Positions 12,912 through 33,288 of a DNA stretch of 33,645 nucleotides are shown here, one piece after another (the first letter of the stretch is position 1; each line of letters starts with the position of its first letter). The DNA is taken from NCBI GenBank assembly GCA_913009825.1, contig CAJVYQ010000061.1:1-33645 (forward strand), read 5' to 3'. A program made the position numbers and the translations under genes. The notes beneath the pieces were generated by a model. It was not told the DNA's origin, did not search any database, and saw only the letters and a program-made list of their open reading frames with translations. The stretch comes from an uncultured Deferribacteres bacterium (GTDB lineage: Bacteria; Zhuqueibacterota; JdFR-76; DREG01).

Positions 12912-12913
12912 TC

Positions 12914-12943: not shown

Positions 12944-12948
12944 ATAGT

Positions 12949-12960: not shown

Positions 12961-12992
12961 CCATCTGTTAACCAACTGAATTGAGGTTTGCA

Positions 12993-13616: not shown

Positions 13617-13639
13617 TCTGAATTACACTGGGGGGGGAT

Positions 13640-13728
13640 GGGCGGGAGTACAACTCCCGCCCAAGCAGTTTTCTAATGTTCGGTCAGGAATTCTAATGCC
13701 CGGCCAGGAATTGTACTCCTGACCGAAT
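13640..13728. repeat. Two hairpin repeats downstream of lexA
   Basis: gggcgggag (13640-13648) pairs with ctcccgccc (13654-13662) over a 5-nt loop. ttcggtcagga (13679-13689) pairs with tcctgaccgaa (13718-13728) over a 28-nt loop that itself contains cggccaggaa, a near copy of the left arm. Neither is followed by a T run. They belong to the same style of ggcagg-(a/g)-gtacaattcctgcc hairpin seen at 7304-7330. Confidence 0.65.
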
Positions 13729-13794
13729 AGGGCTCAGTTCAAAAGATGTTTAATCAATTTTGGATGGAAACGAAAGTGATAGAGTTGTTTTGTT

Positions 13795-14049
13795 ATGGTA
13801 TATGAAGATGTCAATCAATCAATCGAGGTAATTTCCATTTTCCGCCGGGGCAGAATGCGTCCGCTCAAATTTCGCTGGCAGGAGCGTGTTTATAAAATTG
13901 CGCGCATCAATGGCGGGTGGGTCAGCGATGAAGGCTACAACAAACATTATCATTATTCCGTATCCACGGGCGGTCCGGATTGTTTCGAACTCTGTTTTGA
14001 TGTGGGAAATATGCAATGGGAATTAACCCGCGTTTTTATGGATGGATAA
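13795..14049 (+). CDS. Small conserved-looking protein upstream of dinB
   Basis: This 84-aa soluble protein has no signal peptide or membrane segment. It contains an RFRW-like strand pattern (KFRWQERVYKIARINGGWV), a tyrosine/histidine-rich middle (YNKHYHYSV) and the end FELCFDVGNMQWELTRV. The pattern resembles the small DUF6504-type proteins often encoded beside Y-family polymerases, but I assign it to no family with certainty. ATG 13795 is the first start after an in-frame stop at 13780-13782; the Shine-Dalgarno site is weak. It lies between lexA and dinB on the same strand, which suggests a role in or co-expression with the DNA damage response. Confidence 0.65.
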   Translation: MVYEDVNQSIEVISIFRRGRMRPLKFRWQERVYKIARINGGWVSDEGYNKHYHYSVSTGGPDCFELCFDVGNMQWELTRVFMDG

Positions 14050-14186
14050 ATGAAGCGACTCTGAAAACCGCTAATCACGCCAATTTCGTGAATGTTCGTT
14101 TAACTTATTTGCACTTATTTTGGGTGCAGAAAAGTGGCTTCTCTGCCCGGGCAGGCCCGGGCGACCGGACACAAAAAGAGGAAAAT

Positions 14187-15386: not shown

Positions 15387-15405
15387 TGAAGATTGAAAGA
15401 ACGTT

Positions 15406-15451
15406 CCCCATACCCCCTCAAGGGGGGACTAAAATAGGGCGGTACGGGGGA
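15406..15451. repeat. Palindromic repeat after dinB
   Basis: ccccataccccctcaaggggg and the following ggtacgggg block form overlapping inverted repeats. The composition and order (ccccgtacccc...ctcaag...tacggg) resemble 4203-4259. The rest of the 387-nt gap up to 15773 is AT-rich and holds only a possible promoter. Confidence 0.5.
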
Positions 15452-15650
15452 TGTAAAACAACTTTCAATATAATTGCATTGTATCCTGAATAATTACGTT
15501 TACACCTTAAATCATTGACCCTTCCTCTGCAGGAATTGTTAATCGATCAACCCAAATTGTGAATTACAATATTGCAATTGGTGCTCTATTTTATGTATAA
15601 CACTAATAATAACAATGAGATAGATATGCTGAAAAAAAATAAAAAAACAC

Positions 15651-15680
15651 TTGACATTTTTTGTCTCGCAGCATTATTTT
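15651..15680 (+). promoter_or_regulatory. Possible promoter of the PAS/GAF gene
   Basis: TTGACA at 15651-15656 is a perfect -35 hexamer. The -10 is weak: TATTTT at 15675-15680 (18-nt spacer) or TTATTT one base earlier. The start codon lies about 95 nt downstream. Confidence 0.45.
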
Positions 15681-15773
15681 AAACCTGCGGGCATTTTCTA
15701 TTCTTTTTTTTAGATAAACGTCGTAATTCGCATTAAAATATTTCAAAAGTGTTGAAACATATCTGAGGTTTGC

Positions 15774-17774
15774 GTGGCGTATTTTCAAAGGAATCAAATT
15801 CTATATATGGGACGTGACCGGGAGTATGCAAATTCCGTAGCAAAAATATTGAATTATCATGAAAATGAGTTTGAACTGGATACGATTCAGGATGTCCGGG
15901 AAATAGAAGAGGCGGTTGGAGCCAAAAAATTTGAAGCATATATTCTGGATGCAAACCTGTTTCAAAACGGCGATAAGTCGGAAATTGACCGGATTTTGCA
16001 TGTTGCAGATGATGCGCCCGTGTTGATGCTGATAGATGAAGGACAGGAACAGTTGGGTCGGTACGCTCTGGAAAAAGGCGCTTTCGATTACATTGTTCGT
16101 GTGCCCGGCGCATTGACATCGATACCGGCTACTATCGATTGCGCGCTGGAGTTAAAATCCGAACAAGAAAATATCCCCATCGATTTTCGCATCGAGTCGG
16201 ATCTAAACGAAATCACTTCTTTTTTTGAAATCAATGAAACCGGCAGATTCCTGAAGTATGATGAGAATTTATCCGAAATATTAGGATTGCAGAATAATGA
16301 ATTTTATAAATCTTATTTGATGGACTATATTTCCGACGAAGATCGGGATAAATTTTACCGGTGGCGCGCCTCGTCCAAAATCAAAGAAAAAAACTTGCTT
16401 CTGCAAACGGAAGTGATTCATCGTACAAAAGGGATCATTCCGGTAGAATTACAGTTACAACCCTTCTCCAGGCCGGAATCCCTGTTATCAGGGTTTCGCG
16501 GCTATCTTAAAATAATCTCTGGCAAGACTGAAGATCATAAGCGGGAAGAAGCGGCGGCTTTGGTGCCGTTGTTCAAAGAAATTTTTGATCTCACTTATTA
16601 TCTGAATAAGGGGTTCAATCAATTGTTTTCCCTTCAATTGACCGAAATACCAAAGAAATATTTTCATTTTGATTTTGCCGGTTTGTATCTTTATTCACAC
16701 CTGAAAGACGAATATATTTGTGAATTACGCCTGGGCGAGCCGGTCAATGTCCGGGAAGTGGATTTGCAATCGAATGAATTTGACACAGATGATATTGCCC
16801 GTCTGTTCCCCGGGAAGGACTTTATCCGCTTCGTTCATCAAAGTGTTTTGACTGCGGAGGAGAGAAGCAAAATCCATGGCAGCGCCCACGATGAATTGTT
16901 TCTGGAAAAATCTTGGAATCCGGGAGAAGACTGGCAATTGGGCGACCGGCTGTTCATCAATCTCAAAAATGCCGAAGATACCTCTCATGGTTTTATCATT
17001 CTGGAACGTCCTGCATCCGGTAAAATACCGGGAAAAGCTGTCCTGCGTCAAATAGAAATCTATGCCATCTTTATCTCCAGTTTGTATGGAATTTTTACGC
17101 GAACCGAAAATGTAGAGGCGAAATACAAACAGCTAAAGCAGGCATTTGTCATTTTGGAAACGTTTAGCGTCGATGAATCCATCGAGGGATTGTTGAAAGA
17201 AATTACCTGGACGATCAAATTTTCTCTCAAATTCAATTTGTGCGCTATTTCCTTTTTAAGCAAAGCAACCCGTCGGCTGCATATCCGGGCTGCTGCCGTC
17301 GAAGGAAAAGAAAAAGCTTCGATCCTCACCAAATTACACTATAAACTAAGTGAAATAAAACCATTATTGAAAGATGAATGTAAAATATCTAATTCCTACC
17401 TGATTTCACTTGATAAAACATCTCCTTTCCAGCTCCTGAAACGAATTTACGGATTACCTTTGGAATCGACCAAAGCATCCGGACGTTGGCGGCAGAATAA
17501 TTTATTGTTGGTGCCCATCTCTTTGGAAAACGGCAACATCATCGGTTTTATCATCCTGGATGATCCTGCGGATAAACAGCGACCTGCCGCAGAAACGGTG
17601 TATATTTTGGAAAAAATTGCCAAAATGGTTGCAGTTACCATTCAGAATAAAACTGTTTTTTTGAAATTGATCTCAAAAATCCAACAACTGGAAGCAGACA
17701 ATAACAACCTAATCGTAAATAATAGTGGTTCAAATCGCATCAAAAACATTTTCAGACGAATGAATCTCGCTTGA
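15774..17774 (+). CDS. Sensor-like protein: degenerate receiver, PAS and GAF regions
   Basis: This 666-aa soluble protein starts with a receiver-like fold (about 7-115: ILYMGRDREYA, AYILDANLF, PVLMLIDE, GAFDYIVRVP). The usual N-terminal acidic pair is missing and the conserved lysine before proline is replaced by V/R, so it is probably a pseudo-receiver. A PAS-like domain follows (about 140-250, FFEINETGRFLKYDENLSEILG). The middle third is unassigned, and a GAF-like domain fills about 450-640. No kinase, cyclase, GGDEF, phosphatase or DNA-binding domain is seen. The start is GTG 15774, set by TGAGG at 15764-15768; the in-frame alternatives are later. It probably senses a signal and acts through protein contacts, perhaps with the downstream phosphatase network; that link is inference. 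Confidence 0.65.
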   Translation: MAYFQRNQILYMGRDREYANSVAKILNYHENEFELDTIQDVREIEEAVGAKKFEAYILDANLFQNGDKSEIDRILHVADDAPVLMLIDEGQEQLGRYALEKGAFDYIVRVPGALTSIPATIDCALELKSEQENIPIDFRIESDLNEITSFFEINETGRFLKYDENLSEILGLQNNEFYKSYLMDYISDEDRDKFYRWRASSKIKEKNLLLQTEVIHRTKGIIPVELQLQPFSRPESLLSGFRGYLKIISGKTEDHKREEAAALVPLFKEIFDLTYYLNKGFNQLFSLQLTEIPKKYFHFDFAGLYLYSHLKDEYICELRLGEPVNVREVDLQSNEFDTDDIARLFPGKDFIRFVHQSVLTAEERSKIHGSAHDELFLEKSWNPGEDWQLGDRLFINLKNAEDTSHGFIILERPASGKIPGKAVLRQIEIYAIFISSLYGIFTRTENVEAKYKQLKQAFVILETFSVDESIEGLLKEITWTIKFSLKFNLCAISFLSKATRRLHIRAAAVEGKEKASILTKLHYKLSEIKPLLKDECKISNSYLISLDKTSPFQLLKRIYGLPLESTKASGRWRQNNLLLVPISLENGNIIGFIILDDPADKQRPAAETVYILEKIAKMVAVTIQNKTVFLKLISKIQQLEADNNNLIVNNSGSNRIKNIFRRMNLA

Positions 17775-17939
17775 TATCGCAAATTCCCCGGAACGTTTTT
17801 CGCAAATAGCACCAATCCCTCTCTAAAAAATTCACCGGTAGTTTCTGATTGCAATCGTCAATTTTTATTTATATTTTTTATTACTATGTCAATTTTTATT
17901 TTGCGCTCCTGAAAATTGTACTGATCGCAAGATGTTATA

Positions 17940-17984
17940 GATTCCCGCTCTCGCCTGTCTGTCTCAGCCACGGCGGGAATGACA
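17940..17984. repeat. Dispersed palindromic repeat
   Basis: attcccgc (17941-17948) pairs with gcgggaat (17973-17980) around a cgcctgtctgtctcagcc core, ending in gaatgacag. The attcccgc...gcgggaatgacag pair is also present at 4461-4485 inside MITE-like copy 1, and the tail resembles 7349-7380. No gene is visible between 17775 and 18272. Confidence 0.6.
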
Positions 17985-18007
17985 GAAAAGTGGCGTTTTC
18001 TTTCAAG

Positions 18008-18164
18008 CACTAATTAGTGTCTGTCCGAAAATACCCACTACATTGTCATTCCGGTAATCTTTAAGCCGCCTGCCTGTTGCAGACAGGGAATCTACTTGAG
18101 GACGGCAATGGATCTCCGCTAAAAGCATGCGGGAATTACAAATTCAGACAGACACTAATTAGTG
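18008..18164. mobile_element. MITE-like element, copy 2
   Basis: The 157-bp segment is bounded by cactaattagtgtctgtc (18008-18025) and its perfect 18-bp inverse gacagacactaattagtg (18147-18164). The left end is identical over 20 nt to copy 1 at 4351. The body carries tgtcattcc and gcctgcctgttgcagacagggaatc, the latter also at 26926-26950. No ORF is present. It lies between the PAS/GAF gene and the DUF362 gene. Confidence 0.75.
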
Positions 18165-18272
18165 CTGTGATGAGTTATCTGAAAACTTTGTTTTGGTCGG
18201 GTTTGGCGTTAGTGAAGTCCAATATTGTCAACTTTAAAAGTGGAACTTAACATTTTCCCGGTGATCGGTTAA

Positions 18273-19163
18273 ATGAAAACTGCCGTTGTAACAACCATAA
18301 AGAATAACCGTATTCGGAAGAATGGACGTGTAAATCCTCTCGAGTTAACTCATTCATTAAACCGGGGTTTACAAGTTCAATTTTCCGTAGCGGATCCCCG
18401 CGAAGCATGGCGGAAGCTGTTTTCACCCAAAGAAATCATTGCCATAAAAGTAAATTGTCTTGCCGGACGGGGACTCTCCACTCATCCCGAATTGGTGCAG
18501 GTTATCATTGCCCAATTGGAAAAAATCGGCGTGCCCAAAAAGAACATCATCGTTTTTGACCGGGCCAATTTGGATTTGAAACGAGCCGGCTTTAAAATCA
18601 CTACTGCCCGCACCGGCGTACGATGTGCCGGAAATGATTATTTTGGCTATCATCCCAATTTAGTGGTTCATAAAACGATAGGCAGTATGGTCAGTCGGGT
18701 GATGTTTGATGCCGGTGCCGTCATTAATCTACCTGTTTTGAAGGATCATGGTATTGCCGGTTTTAGCGGGGCACTGAAGAACTTTTTCGGCGTCATTCAT
18801 AATCCCAATAAGTATCATTTGAATGTTGGCGATCCGTTTATTGCCGATCTTTGCAGTTATCATCTGATTCGGAAAAAAGTGAAGCTGACTATCTGTGATG
18901 CGCTCACCGCCCAGTACGAAGGAGGGCCGCCTTATATGCCGCAATTTGCGTTGCGGGAAAACATGTTGCTGATCGGTACGGATATGGTTGCCATCGACCG
19001 TGTTGGCTGGAGCATGATTGAAAAATGGCGCCGCGAACACCGGTTGCCTTCATTGAAAGAGGTTCAACGGGAACCAAAATATATTTATACCGCGGCAGAT
19101 AAAAATCACCGGGTGGGAATTGCAGATTTGAACCGGATAAAAATAAACAAGGTGGAACTTTAA
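18273..19163 (+). CDS. DUF362 family protein
   Basis: This 296-aa protein matches the DUF362 pattern: KVNCLAGRGLSTHPELV near residue 58, a central VINLPVLKDHGIAGFSGALKNFFGVI stretch, and LIGTDMVAIDRVGWSMIE near the C-terminus. Ferredoxin-like cysteine clusters are absent, and so is a signal peptide, though many DUF362 members carry a Tat signal. The biochemical role of the family is not established. ATG 18273 directly follows an in-frame stop. The next gene, a Memo-AMMECR1 fusion, begins 1 nt after this stop, so the two form an operon; I recall the same pairing from other bacteria, which would link DUF362 to the AmmeMemoRadiSam group. Confidence 0.8.
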   Translation: MKTAVVTTIKNNRIRKNGRVNPLELTHSLNRGLQVQFSVADPREAWRKLFSPKEIIAIKVNCLAGRGLSTHPELVQVIIAQLEKIGVPKKNIIVFDRANLDLKRAGFKITTARTGVRCAGNDYFGYHPNLVVHKTIGSMVSRVMFDAGAVINLPVLKDHGIAGFSGALKNFFGVIHNPNKYHLNVGDPFIADLCSYHLIRKKVKLTICDALTAQYEGGPPYMPQFALRENMLLIGTDMVAIDRVGWSMIEKWRREHRLPSLKEVQREPKYIYTAADKNHRVGIADLNRIKINKVEL

Positions 19164-19164
19164 A

Positions 19165-20655
19165 ATGAAAAAGATACTTTTTCTTTTATGTGGCAGCTTT
19201 TTCTTGCTGCAAGTTGTATTCGCCCAGGAAGAGTGGGTGCGCAAACCGGCAGTTGCCGGAGCCTTTTATCCCGCCGATCCGAATGAATTAATTGCTACAA
19301 TCCGGGATTTTTTTAAACACGCCAAGCGGATTAAGACGGATGCGGAAGTTTTGGGATTGGTTTCCCCTCATGCCGGGTACCCCTATTCGGGAATCGTAGC
19401 GGCACAAGGCTACAAACAATTGATTGGCCGCTCATTCGATGTGGTAATTGTAATCAGTCCCAGTCATGCCGAATATTTTCCGTTTTCCAGCGTCATGGCA
19501 AAGGGAGAATACAGAACACCGTTGGGTGCAATTAATGTCGATCAAAAATTGTCTGCGGCAATTGCAGCAAACCGGAAAACTATCCGTCTGTCCCGGCACG
19601 GTCATTTTCAGGAACAGTTGGCACAAAAGGAACATGCGTTGGAAGTTCAGTTGCCTTTTCTGCAGCAGACCCTGGGAAAATTTACTCTGGTTGCCATTGT
19701 GATGGGCGAACAATCTCTCCAGGCATGTGAAGAATTGTCTAATGCCATTTGCCAGTCGGCAAAGGGAAAGAAAATTCTAATTGTTGCCAGTTCCGATCTT
19801 TCCCATTTCCATCCCTATCAGGAGGCGAGAAAGATCGATGAAAAATGTGTCGCTCTGATTGGTGATTATAACTACCGGGAGCTGTTTCGGGAATTGCAAA
19901 ATAAAGAAGTGGAAGCGTGCGGCGGCGCTCCCATTGTAACCATGTTGATGGCCACAAAGAAGTTGGGCGCAACGAATGTAAAAGTATTGATGTATGCCAA
20001 TTCCGGCGATACGGCCGGGGATCGTTCCAGGGTGGTCGGTTATGTATCCGCTCTTGTTTTCAAATCGAAAAAGAACAAAAAAACGTCGGGAAAGAGGAAG
20101 AGTAGTGAATATTCAAAACAAGAACGGCAGAAACTTTTGGAGATTGCCCGGATCACCATTGAAAAAAGTGTGAAAGGAGAGGCCATCCCGGGATTTCATG
20201 TAATATCGGAAAAATTGCGGCAGAAAAGAGGCGCATTTGTTACCATCAATAAATTCGGTCAGTTGCGTGGCTGCATTGGCTACACCAAACCGATTTTGCC
20301 GCTCTACCAAACTGTACAGGAAGTAGCACAAGCGGCGGCACTGAATGATCCCCGGTTTCCTCCCGTGTTCAAAGATGAATTGAAACATTTGAAACTGGAA
20401 ATTTCCGTTCTCACACTGCCGGAAAAAATCACCGATGTTAAAAAAATAGAAGTTGGGAAACACGGACTGATAATAAAAAGGGGGTACTCACAAGGTTTGC
20501 TTCTGCCCCAGGTTGCAGCAGAATATCATTGGGATCGGACAACTTTTCTGGAGCAAACCTGCCGAAAAGCAGGATTGAATGAAAATGTCTGGAAAGAACC
20601 GGGCACGGAGATCTACATTTTTTCCGCCGAAGTTTTTGGGGAAGATGGGAATTGA
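19165..20655 (+). CDS. Exported Memo-AMMECR1 fusion (AmmeMemoRadiSam B + A)
   Basis: Two AmmeMemoRadiSam components are fused in 496 aa. A Sec signal peptide (1-20, ends FAQ) precedes a Memo-like domain (about 25-300). It has H69 in SPHAGY, H101 in ISPSHAEY, the HALEVQLPFL and SSDLSHFHPY blocks and C252 in ACGGAPI; these match human Memo metal ligands H49, H81 and C244. A lysine/serine-rich linker leads to an AMMECR1 domain (about 318-496) with RGAFVTIN, LRGCIGY (C370) and DPRFPPV. Memo proteins are metal-binding with debated redox activity; AMMECR1 function is unknown. The signal peptide places this one outside the cytoplasm. The radical SAM partner is not in the window. Start ATG 19165, coupled to DUF362. 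Confidence 0.9.
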   Translation: MKKILFLLCGSFFLLQVVFAQEEWVRKPAVAGAFYPADPNELIATIRDFFKHAKRIKTDAEVLGLVSPHAGYPYSGIVAAQGYKQLIGRSFDVVIVISPSHAEYFPFSSVMAKGEYRTPLGAINVDQKLSAAIAANRKTIRLSRHGHFQEQLAQKEHALEVQLPFLQQTLGKFTLVAIVMGEQSLQACEELSNAICQSAKGKKILIVASSDLSHFHPYQEARKIDEKCVALIGDYNYRELFRELQNKEVEACGGAPIVTMLMATKKLGATNVKVLMYANSGDTAGDRSRVVGYVSALVFKSKKNKKTSGKRKSSEYSKQERQKLLEIARITIEKSVKGEAIPGFHVISEKLRQKRGAFVTINKFGQLRGCIGYTKPILPLYQTVQEVAQAAALNDPRFPPVFKDELKHLKLEISVLTLPEKITDVKKIEVGKHGLIIKRGYSQGLLLPQVAAEYHWDRTTFLEQTCRKAGLNENVWKEPGTEIYIFSAEVFGEDGN

Positions 20656-20699: not shown

Positions 20700-21971
20700 A
20701 TGCGGAGCAGGAAAGAAGGAAATCTGTTTTTATTTGTAGCGGAGTGGTTTATTCTGTTTACTCTCCTCTTTGCTTGTGCGGACAGAAAAAGGGAGAATCC
20801 ATTGGATCCGCTAAACAGCCAAACTTTCGGGAAACCGGTTGGTTTGGATGTTGTTTCATTCGGCAAAAAAACAGTATTGACGTGGCATGCTTTCCGGGTA
20901 AACGGCCTGTCTGGGACCAGGATTTATCGCCGGTCTGTTTTGGATAGTGTCTACCGGGGAATTGCTTTCGTAAGCGGTTCCCAATCTGAATATGAAGACG
21001 AGAACGTGGAATACGGTGTGAAATATTATTACAAAATACAGATGGTTACAGAATCCTACCAAACACCTTTTTCCGATGCGGTGAAAATTACCCCCGGTCC
21101 GTCTTACGTATGGGGAACAACCGGCAACAACGGAACGGTTTTTAAATTAACCCATGACGCTTCCCACCGTATTTTTGAGAAAAATATTTTTTTATCGGCA
21201 GAGGGAATTGCCGGCGCCGGCGCGCACCGGGGTGTTTGGGTAACCGATTATTATCTTGATCAGATTGTCCGGCTTGACGAGACCGGCAAACCGCGGCAAT
21301 GGTACCGGAATTTTGATAGCCCGGTTGATATCGAATACGATTCACTCCGGCATATTCTCTGGATAGCTGAGCAAAAATTGGGACGAATTGTTCTCACGGA
21401 TACTTCCGGCGTCAAAATTGCCGAATTGACTGATTTTCTGTTCCCATCTTCTGTTTCCGTGAACGTAAAAACAGGATTTTGCTGGGTGGCAGATCCCCAT
21501 CTGCATGCGGTTAGTTGGATCGATCCGGAAACTTATGCTGTAACAAGGTTGTCTGCGCTGTTAAGACCCGAAGATGTGGCTGTGAATCCCCGGGACGAAA
21601 GCTGCTGGATTGCAGATAGTTCCCGTGTTTTGAAGGTGAACAGGGACGGGGATTTCCTGTTGACGGTCACCGGTTTTCACTGGGCAGCTAATGTGGCTGC
21701 AAACCCTCTAAGCGGTCAATGTTGGGTTATCGATTGGCAGCCGGGTGCGGATCAATCCCGGGTTGTTTTGATTTCAGCTACCGGAGAAAAAGTAATGGAG
21801 ATGGCCGGGTTATACAATCCCCAATCTTTGGCTGTGGATCCTTTCGACGGAAGCTGTGTTGTAGCGGATACATGGAATTACCGTGTTCTTAAAATTTCTC
21901 CCGCCGGAAAAATTATCGGGGAATGGCAGGGGCGAAACGCGCCGAAAATAATTAGGGTGATCTCGCCATGA
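20700..21971 (+). CDS. Lipoprotein with FN3-like and NHL-like propeller regions
   Basis: The 423-aa product is a probable lipoprotein: after a hydrophobic stretch the lipobox LLFAC ends at C26 and is followed by the polar ADRKRENPLDP. Residues about 40-135 resemble a fibronectin type III domain (VLTWHAF...GTRIYRRS...YYYKIQMV). The rest (about 138-420) contains NHL/YVTN-like blades, with repeated GVWVTDYYLDQIVRLDE, ILWIAEQKLGRIVLTD, CWVADPHLHAVSWID and CVVADTWNYRVLKI motifs. It is expected to sit in the outer or cytoplasmic membrane facing the periplasm or exterior. Its stop overlaps the start of the next gene by 4 nt (ATGA), so it may be co-translated with a membrane phosphatase, a hint that it supplies an external input to that protein. 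Confidence 0.8.
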   Translation: MRSRKEGNLFLFVAEWFILFTLLFACADRKRENPLDPLNSQTFGKPVGLDVVSFGKKTVLTWHAFRVNGLSGTRIYRRSVLDSVYRGIAFVSGSQSEYEDENVEYGVKYYYKIQMVTESYQTPFSDAVKITPGPSYVWGTTGNNGTVFKLTHDASHRIFEKNIFLSAEGIAGAGAHRGVWVTDYYLDQIVRLDETGKPRQWYRNFDSPVDIEYDSLRHILWIAEQKLGRIVLTDTSGVKIAELTDFLFPSSVSVNVKTGFCWVADPHLHAVSWIDPETYAVTRLSALLRPEDVAVNPRDESCWIADSSRVLKVNRDGDFLLTVTGFHWAANVAANPLSGQCWVIDWQPGADQSRVVLISATGEKVMEMAGLYNPQSLAVDPFDGSCVVADTWNYRVLKISPAGKIIGEWQGRNAPKIIRVISP

Positions 21972-24091
21972 CTTTTTCTCTGAGAACCTTTTTTAAAAAC
22001 AAAAGTAATTTTTTCTTAATTATCAGCAGCAGTATTCTGTTTTTTTTGGTATTTATTTTTGACCTCGCCTTTTTGCCGCAGAACAACTTCCCTAAAAATA
22101 TTTACTGGACACGAGAGGGGATGATTACCGTTGCTTCCCTTCTGTTCGGATTGGTGATCTACCGCCGGCATTTCGAAGAAGAAAAAAACATCACTTATAA
22201 ATTAAAGACTTTCTTTTTTTCCATCTTGGGTTTGTACCTGGCGGCAGTTGTGCCAAGCATGATCTTTGGCGCGGGTAATTTTTCTTTCGCTAAAAGTTAT
22301 ATTCAGTTTTTATCTCTGCTGCAAAATAATCTTAAAAATCTGCTCCTGTCCGTCTTTGTTACGGTATTTTTAATAATCAACTTGTTCTGGATACGTGATT
22401 TTGTCTTTTACAAGAGTAAGAGGGGCACCCATCGTTTGTTCTTCATTGCTATGTTATTTTTAGCGCTCTCGGTAATTTATGGTCACTACAGTCATAAAAT
22501 AAAAGAAACGGAATGGTTGTTTCACGGTCAGAGTCCTTCCGAGTTGATCCTTTTCGGCTCGCTTTTATTCCTTTTTACTATGCTCTCCCTTCGGACGGCA
22601 TGGGTAAATTACCTGAACAAGCGGCAGAAAATTTTAACTTTCTGGGGTGGCGTTCTTCTGTTGCCCGGCGCATTTATGTTCTGGCAAACCAACACCCTGC
22701 AATCGATCAGCCATTACAGTTTTACATTGGGAATTTTTGATAAGGGTGCCGCCTTGTTTTTATCCATCTACCTTGTTTCCTCAATTGTGAGTTTACTGCT
22801 TCACCTGCCGACTGCCAGTATTTTTGACAAGCGGATGAAAGAGATCGCCTCCCTGCAAAATTTAAGCAGGGTGATCAGCTCCGTTTTACATTATGACGAG
22901 GTTGTTTCCCGTGTGACTTCCCTGACGCAGGATGTGCTCAAGTCCGACTCGTGTTGGTTGGAAATGGTTCAGGAAAATGGTGAATTGAAAATAGTTTCCA
23001 GTGAAAATCTTTCCTGGCAAGAGAAGAAAAATACGCCGTTGGACCGGGACAGAGGAATTAGTGGCTGGATTTTTAAAAACCGCGCTTCCGTTTTGGTTAA
23101 TGACGTTTCCAAAGATTCACGCACAAAATATCTGCGCAAGCATAGAAAAAATATTGCTTCCATTCTTGGTGTGCCGTTAATTTCACAGAAAAGGGTAATT
23201 GGCATTTTGTTCGCTGTGAAGAACGAGGTTTACGGTTTTGATCAGGATGACCGGGAAATGTCGAATGCTTTTGCTAACCAGGCAACCGTGGCCATTGAAA
23301 ATGCCCGCTTGCTGGAAGAATCGCTGGAAAAAGAACGCCTGGAACAGGAGTTGCGGGTTGCCCACGACACTCAGATGAAATTACTGCCAAAAGAGATGCC
23401 GAAAGTAAAGGGTTTGCAGATTGAAGCGCTCTGCGTGACAGCTTACGAAGTAGGCGGAGATTACTACGATTTCATTCGTCTCGATGAGGACAAATTGGGA
23501 CTGGTTATTGCGGATGTCTCCGGTAAAGGTTTGTCCGCCGCATTCTATATGGCAGAATTGAAGGGGATTGTAAACTCGTTTGCCCGGTTATACTATTCCC
23601 CCAAGCTGTTTTTACAAAAGGTAAACGAAACCCTTTATGAAAACGTCGACAGAAAAACTTTTGTCAGTATGATTTACGCGATTATGGATTTCAAAAAGGG
23701 AAAAATGACTTTCTGTCGTGCAGGACATTGTCCGGTGATCTATTACAACGCCAAAGGGGATACAACCTCAATTTTAAGACCCGATGGGATTGGCGTAGCG
23801 TTGGATGCGGGAAATATTTTCAACGCTACTCTGGAAGAATGTGAAATAAAATGGCATAATAATGACTTTTTCTTTTTTTATACAGACGGCCTCACCGAAG
23901 CGCGCAATGCCAAAAAAGAGGAATACGGAGAAGATAGAGTTGTTGAAATCATTGAAGCGCACAGACACGAATCCATGGAAATGATTACACGAAATTTAAC
24001 GGCCGATGTGATTCAATTCATCGGCAAATCGAATAAACATGATGATTTGTCGTTGGTCGGAACAAAAATACAGGAGGAAATAAATGAGTGA
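21968..24091 (+). CDS. Membrane-bound GAF-SpoIIE (PP2C) phosphatase
   Basis: This 707-aa protein has about eight hydrophobic segments in residues 15-280, then a GAF domain (about 300-447) and a SpoIIE/PP2C domain (about 460-705). Metal-binding acids are intact: GGDYYD (496-501), D516 in DVSGKG, D640 in TDGLTEA and the HDDLSLVG acids near 692-693. Such enzymes dephosphorylate a STAS-domain antagonist, and a STAS gene follows directly, overlapping by 8 nt. The gene starts with ATG overlapping the previous stop. The membrane segment probably senses a signal at the envelope, and the GAF domain may bind a cytosolic ligand. The overlap with the STAS gene makes a phosphatase-substrate pair likely. 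Confidence 0.9.
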   Translation: MTFSLRTFFKNKSNFFLIISSSILFFLVFIFDLAFLPQNNFPKNIYWTREGMITVASLLFGLVIYRRHFEEEKNITYKLKTFFFSILGLYLAAVVPSMIFGAGNFSFAKSYIQFLSLLQNNLKNLLLSVFVTVFLIINLFWIRDFVFYKSKRGTHRLFFIAMLFLALSVIYGHYSHKIKETEWLFHGQSPSELILFGSLLFLFTMLSLRTAWVNYLNKRQKILTFWGGVLLLPGAFMFWQTNTLQSISHYSFTLGIFDKGAALFLSIYLVSSIVSLLLHLPTASIFDKRMKEIASLQNLSRVISSVLHYDEVVSRVTSLTQDVLKSDSCWLEMVQENGELKIVSSENLSWQEKKNTPLDRDRGISGWIFKNRASVLVNDVSKDSRTKYLRKHRKNIASILGVPLISQKRVIGILFAVKNEVYGFDQDDREMSNAFANQATVAIENARLLEESLEKERLEQELRVAHDTQMKLLPKEMPKVKGLQIEALCVTAYEVGGDYYDFIRLDEDKLGLVIADVSGKGLSAAFYMAELKGIVNSFARLYYSPKLFLQKVNETLYENVDRKTFVSMIYAIMDFKKGKMTFCRAGHCPVIYYNAKGDTTSILRPDGIGVALDAGNIFNATLEECEIKWHNNDFFFFYTDGLTEARNAKKEEYGEDRVVEIIEAHRHESMEMITRNLTADVIQFIGKSNKHDDLSLVGTKIQEEINE

Positions 24092-24437
24092 TTTTACTGT
24101 TCGACGCAAAGACGCGGGTGACATTTCGGTCTTGAATATCGAGGGATACCTGGATGCTCACACCGCGCCTGCTTTTGAAGATTCAATCAAACAACTTGTG
24201 GAGGAGAACAGGAACAGAATTGTGGTTAATTTTGACAAACTTTCTTATATCAGCAGCGCCGGATTGGGTGTTTTTATGGGCTTTATCGAGGATATCCGCG
24301 CAAAAAACGGTGACATCAAAATGAGTAACATGTCTGAGAAAGTGTATAAAATTTTTGATTTGTTAGGTTTTCCCAACCTGTATGAAATTGTTTCCGATGA
24401 AACCGAAGCCATTAAAAAATTTAAGGAAACAAAGTGA
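24084..24437 (+). CDS. STAS-domain anti-anti-sigma factor (RsbV/SpoIIAA type)
   Basis: The 117-aa protein is a single STAS domain. In partner switching it is phosphorylated by an RsbW/SpoIIAB kinase, and its dephosphorylated form binds that kinase and frees the kinase's other client. The phosphorylatable site is S58 in LSYISSAGLGVF, aligned with Ser58 of SpoIIAA in DSSGLGV. AGGAGG (24072-24077) ideally precedes ATG 24084, which overlaps the phosphatase gene by 8 nt. The kinase gene follows at 24570 after a 132-nt gap with a long hairpin. An intact phosphosite and both neighbours make its role clear, apart from the identity of the final target. Confidence 0.93.
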   Translation: MSDFTVRRKDAGDISVLNIEGYLDAHTAPAFEDSIKQLVEENRNRIVVNFDKLSYISSAGLGVFMGFIEDIRAKNGDIKMSNMSEKVYKIFDLLGFPNLYEIVSDETEAIKKFKETK

Positions 24438-24477
24438 GATTAACCCTGTTAACGGTTGCGCCGGATTATTTTTGTAA

Positions 24478-24528
24478 CACTGAAATTGTCTTCCCGTAAA
24501 TAGTGCCAAAGGGAATTCAATTTCAGTG
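24478..24528 (+). promoter_or_regulatory. Long hairpin between STAS and kinase genes
   Basis: cactgaaattg (24478-24488) pairs perfectly with caatttcagtg (24518-24528). After a small internal loop, ttccc (24491-24495) pairs with gggaa (24511-24515) over a 15-nt loop. No T run follows, so a standard terminator is unlikely. It may be an RNA processing or stability element that sets the ratio of STAS to kinase mRNA, but the function is not shown. Confidence 0.5.
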
Positions 24529-24558
24529 GTTTTTGAACGCCCCAATAAAATCGCAAAT

Positions 24559-24563
24559 GGAGG
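24559..24563 (+). promoter_or_regulatory. Shine-Dalgarno site deciding a TTG start
   Basis: GGAGG at 24559-24563 lies 6 nt before TTG 24570. An earlier TTG at 24564 directly abuts the site and is therefore rejected. ATG 24557 is out of frame. Confidence 0.7.
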
Positions 24564-24569
24564 TTGATA

Positions 24570-25067
24570 TTGTCAGCCAAAGCTAACAAATTCTCTATGG
24601 TCACTCCCTGCGACAGCCGCTATCTCGAATTGATTCGGGATTTTGTAGCCAAGATTGCAAAAATTACGGGATTTGACGAAGAGCATGTGAATAAAATTCA
24701 ATTGTCTGTGGATGAAGCATGTACAAATGTGGTGAAGCATGCCTACAAAGGGATAGATCCCAAAGATATCAGAGTGGATGTGACATTCGACCAGGAAAAG
24801 ATCACCGTTACCGTCACGGATCGGGGGAAAGGTTTTAATCCGGATAAATCCAAACTTAAAGATATGGATACTTACTTCAATAAATTTCGCCGCGGCGGAC
24901 TGGGGATTCACCTCATAAAAATTTTGATGGACGAAGTGAGCTATTCCATCGATCCGTGCAGGAAAAACAGTGTGAAAATGATTAAATATTTGTGCAAAAT
25001 GGAGTCCCCCGAAAAGAAAAAAGAACAACAAATTTTAATGGAAGAATCCTATGCACGACACAAATAG
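24570..25067 (+). CDS. RsbW/SpoIIAB-type serine kinase (HATPase)
   Basis: The 165-aa protein is a GHKL-type ATPase. The N box holds E49 and N53 (SVDEACTNVVKHAY), the G1 box is DRGKGF (84-89), and the lid/G2 region is RRGGLGIHLIKIL (107-119). Proteins of this family phosphorylate a STAS antagonist and hold a partner, classically a sigma factor, inactive. Start TTG 24570 is fixed by GGAGG 6 nt upstream. The gene's 3' end overlaps the next phosphatase gene by 17 nt. No sigma factor gene occurs in the window, so the client is either encoded elsewhere or is not a sigma factor. Confidence 0.9.
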   Translation: MSAKANKFSMVTPCDSRYLELIRDFVAKIAKITGFDEEHVNKIQLSVDEACTNVVKHAYKGIDPKDIRVDVTFDQEKITVTVTDRGKGFNPDKSKLKDMDTYFNKFRRGGLGIHLIKILMDEVSYSIDPCRKNSVKMIKYLCKMESPEKKKEQQILMEESYARHK

Positions 25068-26862
25068 GCAGGGTCGGGACGATCTTACCCGGGATCGCTA
25101 TGAGGTGATCGATAAAGACGATTTTAATGCGTTGAAAATCAGATACCTGGAGCTCACCTCTCTTTTTGAAATTAATAAAATTCTCAACTCAACCCTCGAG
25201 CTAAGATCAATTTTGGATAATGTGATTCTCACACCAATGGGCCGGTTGATGGTGAGTAAAGGGCTGGTGCTGCTTTTTGACAAACCGGATATTTTAAAAG
25301 TGGAGAATGTGAAAGGAGGATCTTCCAATCTGTTGGGGAAATGTTTCGCTTTTGATTTTTACCCGGAACATTCACTGTTGCTCGACCAGCATGATGTGAG
25401 TCATGACCGGTTTCTCCGGGAGATGCAAAAACATCGGATCGAAGTGATTGTTCCCATGATCGCCGGTGGAAAAGAGCTCGGTTTTATCGCCTATGGCAAA
25501 AAATTCAACGGGGAAACATACAGTCAGGAGGATATCGATTTTTTGGAATCGTTAGCAAATTTGGCCGCCATTGCCGTGGACAAAAGTCTGCTCTTTAAGG
25601 AAATCCAATCCACTAATAAAAAATTAGATAAAAAAGTGCAGGAGTTGAACACACTCTTTGAAATTAGCCGTGAGTTGAATTCCAGTCTGGATCAGGCTAA
25701 AATCAGTCAAATCCTTTCTTTTGCTATCATGGGCGAGTTTCTCATCAATAAATGTGTTGTTCTGATCAAAGGAAACGAGACATTCCGGGTTGAAATTGCC
25801 AAAGGAATTACGGTAAGCCGGGAAACGGTGAGCCTGTGCATCAACAGCCTGCCGTTGCAGCAACTGTTTCGGGATGAAAAGTTTTATTATTTTTTGGATG
25901 ATGAAATACCGGAAGACTCTTTTAATAAGACTTGTAAAAATTTAATCGACAACGGCATAAAATATTTAATCCCCATGTTCAGCAAAAATGATATTAAAGG
26001 GGTCATCGGGATCGGTTCAAAGATCACCGGAGAGAAAGTAGCCCGGAGTGAATTGTCTTTTTTGCAAACCCTTGGTAACGATGCGATGATTGCCATCGAG
26101 AATGCCCGCATGGTGCAGGAGATGTTGGAAAAACAGCGTATGGAGGATGAACTACAAATTGCTCGTGAAATTCAGGCAAAATTACTACCCGATCGTTTTC
26201 CGGATATCTCCGGTTTTGAAATTGCAGCAAAAAATATTTCCAGTTACCAGGTGGGAGGCGATTATTACGATTGTATTCAACTGAATGAGCACCTGTTCGG
26301 GATTGCCATTGCCGATGTTTCCGGCAAGAGTACACCCGCAGCATTGCTTGTCTCCAGCCTTCAGGCAAGTTTGAGAGCGCTGGCCAATGAGAAAGCGGAA
26401 ATTGTGGCAATGGTGGAACACATCAATCAAATCATCTGTCAAAATACAACCGTCGACAAATTCATCACCTTTTTTTATTGTATTCTGGATGTTCAGGCAA
26501 TGACCATCACTTACGTGAATGCCGGCCATAATCCACCTTACCTGATTCGAAACGACGGCTCTCTTCATCTTTTGCAGAAAGGCGGGTTGATTTTGGGCTT
26601 GTTTCCCACTGCACAATACGAGTCCGAAACCATTCTAATGAGAAAAGGTGAAGTGATTTTCATGTTTACCGACGGCGTAACCGAGGCGATGAACGAAAAT
26701 GAAGAGGAATTTGAAGAAACACGTCTTGAAACCCTGTTGAGCCAAACACACCTCCAACCGGCAAAAGCCCTTCTAAACGCTGTCAGTGATGAAGTAGCAG
26801 CATTTGTCGGCGATATTCCTCAAAGTGACGATATTACAATGGTCGTCATCCGCGCCCAATAA
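25051..26862 (+). CDS. Soluble double-GAF SpoIIE (PP2C) phosphatase
   Basis: The 603-aa protein lacks membrane segments. It has two GAF-like domains (about 35-185 and 200-350), a short coiled linker (QRMEDELQIAREIQAKLLP), and a PP2C phosphatase domain (about 375-603). Metal acids are visible in GGDYYD (402-407), D422 of DVSGKS, D541 of TDGVTEA and SDDITMVV (593-594). The usual glycine after DVSGK is serine here. ATG 25051 overlaps the kinase gene by 17 nt, with GGAAGA at 25040-25045. A second phosphatase for the same STAS protein would give a cytosolic input next to the membrane input of the 21968 gene. That pairing is inferred from position only. Confidence 0.9.
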   Translation: MHDTNRQGRDDLTRDRYEVIDKDDFNALKIRYLELTSLFEINKILNSTLELRSILDNVILTPMGRLMVSKGLVLLFDKPDILKVENVKGGSSNLLGKCFAFDFYPEHSLLLDQHDVSHDRFLREMQKHRIEVIVPMIAGGKELGFIAYGKKFNGETYSQEDIDFLESLANLAAIAVDKSLLFKEIQSTNKKLDKKVQELNTLFEISRELNSSLDQAKISQILSFAIMGEFLINKCVVLIKGNETFRVEIAKGITVSRETVSLCINSLPLQQLFRDEKFYYFLDDEIPEDSFNKTCKNLIDNGIKYLIPMFSKNDIKGVIGIGSKITGEKVARSELSFLQTLGNDAMIAIENARMVQEMLEKQRMEDELQIAREIQAKLLPDRFPDISGFEIAAKNISSYQVGGDYYDCIQLNEHLFGIAIADVSGKSTPAALLVSSLQASLRALANEKAEIVAMVEHINQIICQNTTVDKFITFFYCILDVQAMTITYVNAGHNPPYLIRNDGSLHLLQKGGLILGLFPTAQYESETILMRKGEVIFMFTDGVTEAMNENEEEFEETRLETLLSQTHLQPAKALLNAVSDEVAAFVGDIPQSDDITMVVIRAQ

Positions 26863-27324: not shown

Positions 27325-28746
27325 ATGATTAAAATAATAATTGATTTGTTCAAAGACTATTTTAAGAAAACCGTTGCTGTTTATTACAGCCTTAATCTGC
27401 GGCTGAAATTCACCATTCTGCTCAATTCAATTTTGTTGATTGTGATCCTTCTGATCAGTTTTGCCATGTTGGAATCGGAGAAACGTGATCTGCGCCAGAA
27501 GGTGGACGAAATCTGCATCGTCTCCGTACAAAATCTTTCCAGCGTGGCACGGGATAATCTGCTGACGCGAAATTATGTATCCATTCAGGATGTAATAAAC
27601 AATATGATGAAATTGAAATTGGAGGGTTTTGAATACGCTTTTGTGATGGACAGAGATGGCAGAATGGTGGCACATTCCGATCCTTTGAAGATCACCGAAA
27701 TCGATTCTTCCTACCTGAACTATTTACATAGCGATACCAACTTTACCGTGAATAGCTTCCGGCGCGGCGCGGAATATTTACAGATTTTATCCCATCGGAT
27801 GCAGGACCCGAACGGAAATCTACGGACAGTTGTCATTGGAGTAGCCGGAGTTGCTTTTTCTCATGCCATGATCGATCAGGCGCTGAACCAGGCAAAACAG
27901 ATGATTTTCCTGATTGCTCTGATCGTCCTTTTAATCAGTATTTTTGTAGTCCATTTTATCTCAAAGCGAATGTCAAAAAATATTATCGCTCTTGCGAAGG
28001 GTGTCGGCGAGATTGCAAAAGGGAATTTGGATGTGGAAATCCGGGTGCAGACGCGGGACGAGATCGGCCTTCTGGCGCGGGAATTTAACCGAATGGTGCG
28101 CAGTCTGCGTGAAAATGTGCAGATGCAGAAATTTGTTTCCCGATTAACCGTGGATATGATTCAAAGTCAATCCGGCGGTACCGAGACGGTTCAATCTTTC
28201 CAAAAAAAGGAAATTACGGTTCTGTTTACGGACATCCGCGGGTTTACCAAACTTTCCGAAAAACTGGCGCCGGAACAGTTGGTGGAAATTGTGAATATTT
28301 ATCTGAAATTGCAGAGTAAATTTATCGAAGATCACGGCGGTGTGATTGACAAATTCGCCGGCGATGCCGTGATGGCCATTTTTCAGAATGAAAATTCTTC
28401 GGATAATGCAATCAAAGCGGCTGTTGCCATCCAGAAAAAAATCAAAGAATTGAATAAAATTCGCAGAAAGAACAACCAGGAATATCTAACCATCGGCATT
28501 GGTATTAACTATGGCGAGGCTATGATTGGAAGTATGGGCGCTTCTTCGCGGATGGATTATACCGCCATCGGCGATGTAGTGAATCTGGCCAGCAAACTGT
28601 GCAGCTTTTCCCGCGCCGGGCATATCGTAATAACTAAAAATGTGATTCGCTATCTGAGCGGCGCATTTTCCGTGATCAAAATGGAACCGGTTCTGTTAAG
28701 CGGCAGAAGAAAGCCGGTTCAGGTTTACCGAATTGTGTATGATTGA
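27325..28746 (+). CDS. Membrane class III adenylate/guanylate cyclase with HAMP
   Basis: The 473-aa protein has TM1 (about 28-49), an extracytoplasmic Cache-like sensor (about 50-190), TM2 (193-214), HAMP (about 212-265) and a class III cyclase domain (about 290-473). Both metal aspartates are present: D303 (FTDIRGF) and D347 (DKFAGDAV). Lys343 and D411 occupy the base-recognition positions and favour ATP, hence cAMP. In the transition-state motif NLASKL, N420 is present but the usual arginine is K424. Start ATG 27325 has no clear ribosome site. The downstream barrel/TPR gene starts inside or just after its stop. Confidence 0.88.
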   Translation: MIKIIIDLFKDYFKKTVAVYYSLNLRLKFTILLNSILLIVILLISFAMLESEKRDLRQKVDEICIVSVQNLSSVARDNLLTRNYVSIQDVINNMMKLKLEGFEYAFVMDRDGRMVAHSDPLKITEIDSSYLNYLHSDTNFTVNSFRRGAEYLQILSHRMQDPNGNLRTVVIGVAGVAFSHAMIDQALNQAKQMIFLIALIVLLISIFVVHFISKRMSKNIIALAKGVGEIAKGNLDVEIRVQTRDEIGLLAREFNRMVRSLRENVQMQKFVSRLTVDMIQSQSGGTETVQSFQKKEITVLFTDIRGFTKLSEKLAPEQLVEIVNIYLKLQSKFIEDHGGVIDKFAGDAVMAIFQNENSSDNAIKAAVAIQKKIKELNKIRRKNNQEYLTIGIGINYGEAMIGSMGASSRMDYTAIGDVVNLASKLCSFSRAGHIVITKNVIRYLSGAFSVIKMEPVLLSGRRKPVQVYRIVYD

Positions 28747-28756
28747 TTTTCGTGTG

Positions 28757-30991
28757 ATGAATATTTATCGTAGTTTTTTTTCCCTTTTTATCGGCTTGTT
28801 AAGCCTCTTTCCACTACCGGCAAATGCGCAACAATTTTTCTTTTTGGATGCCAGAGCTAAAGCGTTAGGAGGCGTTTCCGCCACGCTTAAAAATGCTGCG
28901 TACGCATTTTTAAACAATCCTGCCAATTTAGCCGAAAACCGGCGTGCTCTTTTTTCCATCAATGTCGATCGACTGTTTCAATACGACCAAACCGCTGTTT
29001 CCGATTATTTCCCACAGATTGGCGGTCTGGGGTTTGCTATCGGACGCTTACACACAGGTGAGGAGACTGATTTTATCGGTTTTGGTATCGGCCGGGAAAT
29101 TTATTCCGGTATCCGGATTGGCATTGGAAATATCACGTACGCAAAAAAAAGTGATGCTGCCTCCGAATGGGAATTAGGAGTCTCCTTTTCGCCCACTGCT
29201 CAGCGGCTGAATTCTCAGTCCGTAACCAGTCTTTTTCGGTTTGATTTTTCCGCCACGTTCCAGCACATCACACTGTCAAAAAAACGGTTCGGACCGCCGC
29301 TGCAATTTACACTGGCAATTAGATACCGGGCTATTAACCGGATGCTGGACATGTACGTGGAAAACCAATTCAGGACGAAAAATAACGATTTTATCACTGC
29401 CGCAGAATTACACGCATCCGAATTTATTACTTTGCGTTCCGGAATTTCCAATTTTGATAAAAATGACTTTTTATTCGGTGTCGGCGTCAATCTTTCCGGT
29501 TTTAATCTGGATTTTGTTTATGAGAAATATCAAAAACAGATCCAATTTTCCGGCAATATTCAATTCGGAGAATCGGTCATCACCCGGGCAGACCGGTGCT
29601 ACCGGAGAGGATTGGCACTTATAAAACAAAATAAGTTGGTGGAAGCGCTGTCTCAGTTCCGCAAGTCTCTCATTTTCACGCCGGAAAATGAAAAAATAGC
29701 AAAAACTTATGCGGACATTAAACTGTTGTACGAGAAGAGACAGGAAAAATTGTCCCGGTACTTGCAGGAAGCACAGCAATATGAACAAAATGGCGAGCCT
29801 CTGGCCGCACTGCTGCGATATATCGATATTGCGCAGCAGTATCCTGTAAACCAAGAAGTCCGGTTTAAAATTGCCATGCTTAAACCGGCTACCCGGGTTC
29901 AATTTGAGGAATATAAAAAAACCGCTGTTGGGATTTATAAAAAGGGCCGGTTAAAACAGGCGCAGAAAATTTTTCAACGTTTAGCCCTGGTAAATGACCG
30001 GGATTCCACTATTCAAAAATATAGCCGCTTAATCGAAACAGAAATAAGGCAGCAGGCGGAAGAATATTTTGTGCGCGGATTCGGCTATTGGGGGCAAAAA
30101 AAATACCGGGCGGCCCGGCGTGATTTTGAGCTGGTTTATGATCTGCAGCCGGATTATCCCAAAATACAATATTTTCTGGACGATGTGAAGAAACAGATTC
30201 AACTCACGCAGGGTGCAATTGACAGTTTGCTTCTCATCGCAAAAGAAAAGGAAAAATTAAAACAATATACCGGGGCCATTTCTGCTTACGGAAAAATTCT
30301 GAATATCGATCCGGAAAATAGTGCTGCCCGAAACGCTTTGAGTGATATTCACCCGAAGGTGGAGTCTTATCTTGCCGGACTGTCCGACCAGGCCAACAAA
30401 TCTTTCAAAGCCGGTGAATATTTCAATACGGAAGCGTTATGCAGAAAGATTCTGCGTATCGATCCGGAAAAGACAGCCGCACGGGAATTGCGCATCCGGA
30501 GCAGGGAAAAGCGGAAAAGCAGGGCGGATGATCTGTGGCAGCAGGGATTGAAAGTTTATGCCGATAAAAAATATAAAGCAGCTATTAATCTTTTTCAGGC
30601 AGCCATCCGGTTGAACGGCAGGCAGGATAAATATGTAAAAGCGCTGCAGGAGGCAAAATTAAAAGCGGATACAAAAAGTAAATGGCTGACGGTTAACCGG
30701 TTGCTGGAGTCTAATCAATATGTTGCAGCGGAAAAATTAATTGATGAATTATTACTGAAATACCCCCAAAACCGTACTTATCAGGAATCCCGGCAGAAAA
30801 TCAAGTTAAAACATCGGCGGTATGCAACTATGCTTTTGCAGGAAGGTATCCGGCTGTATTCCCAGGAAAAATACCAGGAGGCGGTTAAAAAATTTGAACA
30901 GCTTTTAAAAATTAATCCGCAAAACCGGACCGCACAGGAGTACAGGAAGCGCATCATAGAAAAAATGCAGGCTCTGAAAAAACTAAAATGA
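28757..30991 (+). CDS. Outer-membrane-barrel-like protein fused to TPR repeats
   Basis: The 744-aa protein begins with a signal peptide (1-24, core FFSLFIGLLSLFPLPANA). Residues about 25-270 resemble PorV/FadL-like outer-membrane barrels: DARAKALGGVSATLKNAAYAFLNNPANLA is the typical start, followed by alternating beta strands. The remainder (about 275-744) is TPR-like with many repeats, such as KKYRAARRDFELVYDLQPDYPK, KQYTGAISAYGKILNIDPENSAAR and EKYQEAVKKFEQLLKINPQNRTAQE. ATG 28757 gives the cleanest signal peptide; ATG 28739 is possible and overlaps the cyclase stop, so the N-terminus is uncertain. The stop overlaps the next ATG by 4 nt. It may be a periplasmic or outer-membrane scaffold; its exact role is unknown. 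Confidence 0.75.
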   Translation: MNIYRSFFSLFIGLLSLFPLPANAQQFFFLDARAKALGGVSATLKNAAYAFLNNPANLAENRRALFSINVDRLFQYDQTAVSDYFPQIGGLGFAIGRLHTGEETDFIGFGIGREIYSGIRIGIGNITYAKKSDAASEWELGVSFSPTAQRLNSQSVTSLFRFDFSATFQHITLSKKRFGPPLQFTLAIRYRAINRMLDMYVENQFRTKNNDFITAAELHASEFITLRSGISNFDKNDFLFGVGVNLSGFNLDFVYEKYQKQIQFSGNIQFGESVITRADRCYRRGLALIKQNKLVEALSQFRKSLIFTPENEKIAKTYADIKLLYEKRQEKLSRYLQEAQQYEQNGEPLAALLRYIDIAQQYPVNQEVRFKIAMLKPATRVQFEEYKKTAVGIYKKGRLKQAQKIFQRLALVNDRDSTIQKYSRLIETEIRQQAEEYFVRGFGYWGQKKYRAARRDFELVYDLQPDYPKIQYFLDDVKKQIQLTQGAIDSLLLIAKEKEKLKQYTGAISAYGKILNIDPENSAARNALSDIHPKVESYLAGLSDQANKSFKAGEYFNTEALCRKILRIDPEKTAARELRIRSREKRKSRADDLWQQGLKVYADKKYKAAINLFQAAIRLNGRQDKYVKALQEAKLKADTKSKWLTVNRLLESNQYVAAEKLIDELLLKYPQNRTYQESRQKIKLKHRRYATMLLQEGIRLYSQEKYQEAVKKFEQLLKINPQNRTAQEYRKRIIEKMQALKKLK

Positions 30992-31974: not shown

Positions 31975-33288
31975 GTGAAATTGGAATCAAGGATAGAAAA
32001 AATGCTTGAAAGTAATCCGGAGGTCTCCGAACAAAATCAGCTTCTTTTAAAAGAAATTAAAAAAGAAGCCCTGGAAAAGTCCATTCTGTTGGAAGTCAGT
32101 AAGCGGATCAGTTCTTCTCTGAATGTGAAAGAAGTTTTAGAAATCATCATCGATTCTGTGAAACTGGTAATTCCTTACGATGCGGCGGGGATCTTTTTGC
32201 TCAGACGGAAATCGAAAAAGATTTATCCGGCGGTATTGCGAGGATATGATCATCTGGCATTGAAACGCTCTCAATTGAAGGTAGGACGGGGATTGGTTGG
32301 CATTGTAGCCCGTGAAGGGAAGGGCATTGTCGCCCCGGATGTTACCCGTAATTTTCAATACGTTGATGCACGGAAAGCGACAAAATCGGAAATTATTGTA
32401 CCGCTGATTGTGAGAAACAAACTATTGGGAGCGCTCAATTTGGAATCGGATCAAATCAACGCTTTTTCTGAAGATCAACTGAACCTGCTTACCGCATTTG
32501 CCAGTCATGCTGCCATCGCAATCGATAATGCCCGGCTTCACGAAGAAGTATTGCGCAGCAAAGAGCTGGAATTCGATCTGAGAACGGCCAGAAAAATCCA
32601 GAAAGCGTTGTTGCCGAAAGTTACGCCGAAAATTAACGGCTATGATTTTGCCACACTGAATATCCCCTCTAAAACGGTTAGCGGCGATTTCTATGATCTG
32701 ACATGGCTGCATAATTGCCGCCTTGGGTTGTCCATTGGCGATGTTTCCGGCAAAGGAACGCCTGCCGCAATTTTGATGGCTTCCATCTATTCTTCATATA
32801 AAAGAGTAATTAACGAATCCGCTTCGGTTGCAGAGAGAATAATACATCTCAATGAAATTATGAGTGAATCTATGGTAGCCGGCACCTACACGACTTTTTT
32901 CTTCGGGGAGTTGGATACGGAAAAACGGATGATTACCTATTGTAACGCCGGCCATTTTCCGCCCCTGATTATTCGCAAAACCGGAGAAACGCTAAAACTG
33001 GAAGAAGGCGGCACCGTCGTTGGTTTTATCAGAGATGTTGTTTACCAACAGGCTTCGGTAGATTTCGTTTCCGGTGATGTGCTTTTGCTATATACCGATG
33101 GTTTGATTGAGGCTAAAAATCGCCATGGAAAGGTCTTTGATCTGGAAAATGTAATTCAATTGATTCAAAATAATCCTGAATCCACCGCGCTGGAATTGAA
33201 AGAAAAGATTCTGATATTGGTTAAAAAATTTGTCGGAAAATCATATTTTGATGATGATTTGACCTTTGTTCTGATAAAAATCAAGTAA
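31975..33288 (+). CDS. GAF-SpoIIE (PP2C) phosphatase
   Basis: The 437-aa soluble protein has a coiled-coil-like N-terminus (1-35), a GAF domain (about 40-190) and a SpoIIE/PP2C domain (about 215-437). Metal acids are seen in VSGDFYD (D238, D241), D256 of DVSGKG, D375 of TDGLIEA and the D426-D428 cluster of DDDLTFV. The first site reads SGD rather than the GGD of the other two phosphatases. The start is probably GTG 31975 with GGA at 31968-31970; TTG 31981 is an alternative. No STAS or kinase gene lies beside it. It may feed the partner switch encoded at 24084-25067 or act on another target. Its own promoter is likely at 31907-31935. Confidence 0.9.
   Translation: MKLESRIEKMLESNPEVSEQNQLLLKEIKKEALEKSILLEVSKRISSSLNVKEVLEIIIDSVKLVIPYDAAGIFLLRRKSKKIYPAVLRGYDHLALKRSQLKVGRGLVGIVAREGKGIVAPDVTRNFQYVDARKATKSEIIVPLIVRNKLLGALNLESDQINAFSEDQLNLLTAFASHAAIAIDNARLHEEVLRSKELEFDLRTARKIQKALLPKVTPKINGYDFATLNIPSKTVSGDFYDLTWLHNCRLGLSIGDVSGKGTPAAILMASIYSSYKRVINESASVAERIIHLNEIMSESMVAGTYTTFFFGELDTEKRMITYCNAGHFPPLIIRKTGETLKLEEGGTVVGFIRDVVYQQASVDFVSGDVLLLYTDGLIEAKNRHGKVFDLENVIQLIQNNPESTALELKEKILILVKKFVGKSYFDDDLTFVLIKIK

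Follow-up and report, generated by a model that had tools for sequence, protein, structure and literature searches.

A predicted Rsb-type partner switch with several phosphatases and an orphan kinase, conserved across a bacterial phylum

Partner switches are usually explained by an adjacent sigma factor. In Bacillus subtilis, where RsbU or RsbP, RsbV and RsbW control SigB, two phosphatases act on one RsbV. The locus described here has the same protein families and would follow the same order of events, and RsbW and RsbV of B. subtilis are the closest relatives with solved structures. It differs from that system in that no SigB-type sigma factor was linked to it or found in 59 genomes, and up to four phosphatases, two of them membrane-bound, stand around the switch, together with a candidate lipoprotein partner. 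In other systems, of the HsbA and SiaC type, the STAS protein or kinase has its output on an enzyme or regulator instead of a sigma factor.

Several described systems come closer in one respect or another. In Chlamydia trachomatis, the RsbU-RsbV1-RsbW pathway likewise has no SigB, and binding of RsbW to the primary sigma factor, sigma66, has been reported (PMC4552016); here, however, the genomes are larger, ECF sigma factors are many, there are several phosphatases per cluster and the client is a candidate only. The Synechocystis kinase Slr1861, with Ssr1600, controls SigC (PMC12329169), a partner switch on an RpoD-family sigma factor for which the phosphatase has not been identified, whereas several phosphatases are linked here. 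For RbaVW of Rhodobacter capsulatus, no sigma partner was seen either, and the genetic evidence favoured the STAS protein as the regulator that decides the outcome (PMC3999984); its operon layout differs from the multi-phosphatase array seen here. Clostridioides difficile RsbZ is a tandem-GAF phosphatase with a predicted coiled-coil linker that works in the sigmaB pathway (PMC12143880), while the double-GAF phosphatase here is without SigB and is one of several phosphatases.

The window, a stretch of 33,645 nucleotides, is the entire contig C61 of a 5.1-Mb draft genome. An earlier note on this DNA had described four complete genes for a partner switch; all four open reading frames were found where it had put them, on the forward strand, each with a strong Pfam match. 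The first (21968 to 24091) encodes a membrane phosphatase (SpoIIE, 1.1e-43; GAF, 7.5e-18) for which hydropathy and Pfam matches predict roughly six to nine transmembrane helices, followed by a GAF domain and a SpoIIE/PP2C domain. The second (24084 to 24437) encodes a STAS protein of the RsbV/SpoIIAA type (Pfam STAS, 2e-19; TIGR00377 above cut-off), with Ser58 in YISSAGLGVF as the predicted phospho-acceptor; the nearest solved structure is B. subtilis RsbV (6m36_B, 7e-14). The third (24570 to 25067) encodes an RsbW-type serine kinase and candidate anti-sigma factor (HATPase_c_2, 3.1e-30), nearest to B. subtilis RsbW (6m36_A, 7e-15). Its start is more likely the TTG at 24570, which follows a GGAGG by about 6 nt, than that at 24564. 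The fourth (25051 to 26862) encodes a soluble GAF-GAF-SpoIIE phosphatase (SpoIIE, 1.1e-49, plus GAF), and the structural matches of its phosphatase domain were to RssB-type proteins and SpoIIE. The gene order held as described, but the genes do not overlap or adjoin throughout, given a 126-bp gap between the STAS and kinase genes.

That gap contains a hairpin (24478 to 24528, forward strand) that has a perfect stem of 11 bp and a run of T after it (fold z of -2.9), which possibly controls stoichiometry. As a conserved or dispersed element it was ruled out: it occurs at a single site in the genome, and no such conserved element was present in the STAS-kinase gaps of relatives.

Taken by their residues, the four genes are predicted to form an Rsb-type partner switch. 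The STAS protein carries a phosphorylatable serine in a D/S-S-x-G-L motif, the kinase is of the RsbW-type GHKL class with N and G boxes intact, and the PPM/SpoIIE phosphatases have their metal-binding aspartates, so that the anatomy of a partner switch is present with its catalytic residues, as had been claimed. The same residues are kept in aligned orthologues. Across 42 sequences (41 loci of the window's own phylum, that is, the window and 40 relatives, plus the Balneolia locus L014), Ser58 and the surrounding YISSAGLGV were kept in all 42, as were D50, E51, N55, H59, D86 and G88 of the kinase and D404, D422 and D541 of the double-GAF phosphatase; D594 was kept in 41/42. Among STAS orthologues of a sister phylum, Ser58 was found in 20/20 (12 through a motif search and 8 as YIASAGLGV, 6 of these seen in full). 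The kinase scores below the curated RsbW equivalog cut-offs (96.2 bits versus 145 for NF003144; 86.3 versus 155 for TIGR01924).

The module is nearly universal in its phylum. At E<=1e-60, a match to the double-GAF phosphatase was found in 58/59 related genomes and in all 46 of those of good quality, and STAS, RsbW and double-GAF phosphatase genes occurred together in each of the 41 own-phylum neighbourhoods examined (the window and the loci of 40 relatives). In one of these (L097), about 3.8 kb lies between the kinase and double-GAF phosphatase genes. By its genes, then, this appears to be a variant of the Rsb-type partner switch, conserved phylum-wide, with several phosphatases and an orphan kinase. 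In another phylum, that of the Balneolia locus, the phosphatase was found in 30/61 genomes; at seven loci there (L194, L197, L199, L200, L203, L213 and L216), the double-GAF phosphatase was kept and no STAS or RsbW gene was detected alongside.

The gene just upstream of the membrane phosphatase is also part of the cluster. It encodes an NHL lipoprotein (20700 to 21971, forward strand; NHL, 4.3e-07) that has a lipobox (C26) at its N-terminus and NHL beta-propeller repeats towards its C-terminus, and it overlaps the membrane phosphatase gene by 4 bp. In 26 lipoprotein orthologues upstream of the same operon, the lipobox cysteine and an NPLDP motif are invariant or nearly so. The lipoprotein may serve the membrane phosphatase as an envelope partner or sensor. 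The earlier note had contrasted an envelope input with a cytosolic one; the membrane phosphatase bears a cytosolic GAF domain too, and thus an envelope input alone does not follow.

The number of phosphatases proved to be variable. A tree of phosphatase domains resolved four orthologous families around one STAS/RsbW pair: the double-GAF family, with a member in all loci of the tree; a membrane-GAF family of about 700 aa, with 26 members from across the phylum, the window's included; a membrane family without GAF, of about 810 aa and with about 20 members; and a receiver-domain family of 381 to 391 aa with about 23 members. The two membrane families cluster together. In the window's genome, the relative of the 810-aa type is unlinked, on contig C23. 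A third SpoIIE phosphatase, a GAF-SpoIIE protein (31975 to 33288, forward strand; SpoIIE, 1.2e-44; GAF, 7.5e-17), lies 5 kb downstream of the cluster and is a possible extra input; homologues lie near the module in two relatives (L078 and L080). Since the set differs across the phylum, the two phosphatases noted earlier, correct in that there is more than one, are better seen as one state of a varying array. No STAS gene was detected beside several other SpoIIE phosphatase genes of the window's genome (C23, C48, C62 and C69).

Operon position suggests that these phosphatases converge on one STAS protein. Published work describes loops on such phosphatases at which the STAS substrate docks (PMC11418112), and a proposal exists that sensor domains switch the phosphatase by way of coiled-coil linkers (PMC12143880); by analogy, it is plausible that those of the array dephosphorylate one STAS protein.

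We imagine that the RsbW-like kinase would phosphorylate Ser58 of the STAS protein and keep a client inactive. The membrane phosphatase, possibly through its lipoprotein partner, or the soluble phosphatase, through its GAF pair, would then be activated and dephosphorylate the STAS protein, which would bind the kinase and so release the client. In our judgement, which is not a computed value, this mechanism is very probably right in outline, although we infer the kinase and phosphatase activities, the pairing of phosphatases with the STAS protein and the direction of the switch. The identity of the client is the least certain part of the explanation.

No sigma factor is linked to the module. 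When the 20 sigma factors of the window's genome were searched against all open reading frames of 60 aa or more in the 41 own-phylum neighbourhoods (E<=1e-6), no sigma gene was found in any of them, which agrees with what the earlier note had seen in the window. The identical search recovered ECF sigma factors in other loci and is therefore able to detect them. The absence holds in 41/41 neighbourhoods and so cannot be put down to where the window happens to end; that a linked sigma gene sits just beyond the contig end is very improbable, for even though the window is a whole contig whose readable sequence stops at 33645, no such gene was seen around the module in any of the 40 relatives, where most neighbourhoods extend several kb to either side, or in the more than 20 kb upstream in the window.

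A cognate factor of the SigB general stress system was not found elsewhere either. None of the 59 genomes had a SigB/F/G protein above the TIGR02980 cut-off; the best match was FliA-like, with 149 bits versus 234. The 20 sigma factors of the window's genome comprise three of the RpoD type (on contigs C4, C24 and C41), one FliA-like protein and 16 others that are ECF-sized, and in a scan of that genome none lay near the module. The remaining RsbW-like kinase genes of that genome also have no sigma gene as a neighbour, except for a set on C41, with one at a distance of about 12 to 14 kb. There (L043, positions 1 to 20000), a second STAS-RsbW-phosphatase set stands among receiver-domain and pilus-like genes, with the RpoD-type sigma gene that distance away.

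By elimination, the client could be a sigma factor encoded away from the module, with the RpoD family as the most probable source; this is our first choice, held tentatively and as a judgement rather than a computed result. In 6/9 genomes tested (G049, G008, G012, G014, G018 and G026), exactly one protein with a Sigma70_r3 domain was found, in each case an RpoD orthologue 59 to 74% identical to the nearest RpoD-type sigma factor of the window's genome. The module itself was observed in five (L094, L097, L084, L101 and L114); for G026, the observation was limited to a phosphatase match. With RpoD as the single region-3 sigma factor, a region-3 client, if any, would have to be the housekeeping factor there, and the switch would throttle transcription in general. 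The Chlamydia sigma66 pathway (PMC4552016) is a precedent for such a client, and control of SigC in Synechocystis (PMC12329169) is one for a client of the RpoD family. Against an RpoD-family client, the same genomes hold 11 to 22 other sigma70 region-2 proteins that are ECF-like, any of which is a possible client (region-2 totals in four of them were 12, 12, 18 and 23). In addition, the genomes are mostly drafts, about 89 to 96% complete, and a second region-3 sigma factor could be missing from some. The RbaVW result, with no sigma partner (PMC3999984), also argues against it. One can envision a still broader version, in which throughout the phylum one RsbW/STAS switch with up to four phosphatases sets the availability of the housekeeping sigma factor or an RpoD paralogue, as a throttle on growth and not an alternative-sigma stress response; taken as a whole, this extension is rather doubtful.

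Another phylum provides a serious rival to the RpoD-family client, and one that counts against it. In 6/28 neighbourhoods from the phylum of the Balneolia locus (L196, L198, L201, L202, L210 and L212, from six genomes), the orthologous operon opens with an ECF sigma gene and runs on one strand as sigma-(single-TM protein of 412 to 436 aa, in 4/6)-PPm-STAS-RsbW-PPgg. The linked ECF factors are 53 to 71% identical to the first member. Gaps of a few bases suggest a single operon, and in L212 and L201 there is no other long open reading frame between the sigma and phosphatase genes. The single-TM protein is without an evident anti-sigma domain; in L196, it has about 15 residues before the transmembrane segment, which leaves no room for a classical anti-sigma domain. 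The client might thus be an ECF sigma factor whose gene sits next to the module in some lineages but lies elsewhere in the genome in the window's phylum. To our knowledge, RsbW-type control of an ECF sigma factor would be unusual. Linkage was limited to those 6/28 neighbourhoods and to 0/41 in the window's own phylum; moreover, a profile of the linked ECF factors gave no distinct orthologue in 30 own-phylum genomes, with a continuum of scores up to 136 bits, and the three highest scores from the window's genome differed by about 10 bits. We consider an ECF client unlikely overall, while taking it seriously, at least for the six loci in which it is linked.

It also seems improbable, though worth weighing, that the output is not a sigma factor at all and that free STAS protein or kinase binds an enzyme or regulator. 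This would account for the lack of a linked sigma gene in 41 neighbourhoods and of a SigB/F/G protein above cut-off in 59 genomes, and RbaV acts without an identified sigma factor (PMC3999984). Models for SiaA and RssB do match the phosphatases, far below cut-off. A candidate in the window's order is the adjacent HAMP class III nucleotide cyclase (27325 to 28746, forward strand; Guanylate_cyc, 3.6e-25; HAMP, 1.8e-12; a weak sCache match), which is overlapped by the gene for a TPR protein (28733 to 30991, forward strand; TPR match) that is kept with it in that order (L077 to L081). Both genes follow the module in 6/6 same-order loci examined; within this order alone, the cyclase may be the client or an output running in parallel. 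Its metal aspartates are kept; the transition-state arginine is lysine in the window and varies among lysine, histidine and arginine in same-order relatives, which counts against a cyclase output. As a universal client the cyclase was rejected, since it is limited to one order and the module extends throughout the phylum, and no other effector gene is consistently linked.

A near-universal switch, the absence of a sigma factor of the usual family from the genomes searched and the single region-3 sigma factor of some of them together give a short, testable list for orphan RsbW kinases. The several sensor types on one switch, gained or lost between families, offer a natural series for the study of signal integration.

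Two further observations concern the window's genome. On contig C2 (L039, 9475 to 14085), a 1272-aa protein combines RsbW-type and SpoIIE domains and is followed by a 231-aa STAS protein. On contig C37 (29100 to 29410), what is left of a SpoIIE phosphatase gene contains stop codons and may be a pseudogene.
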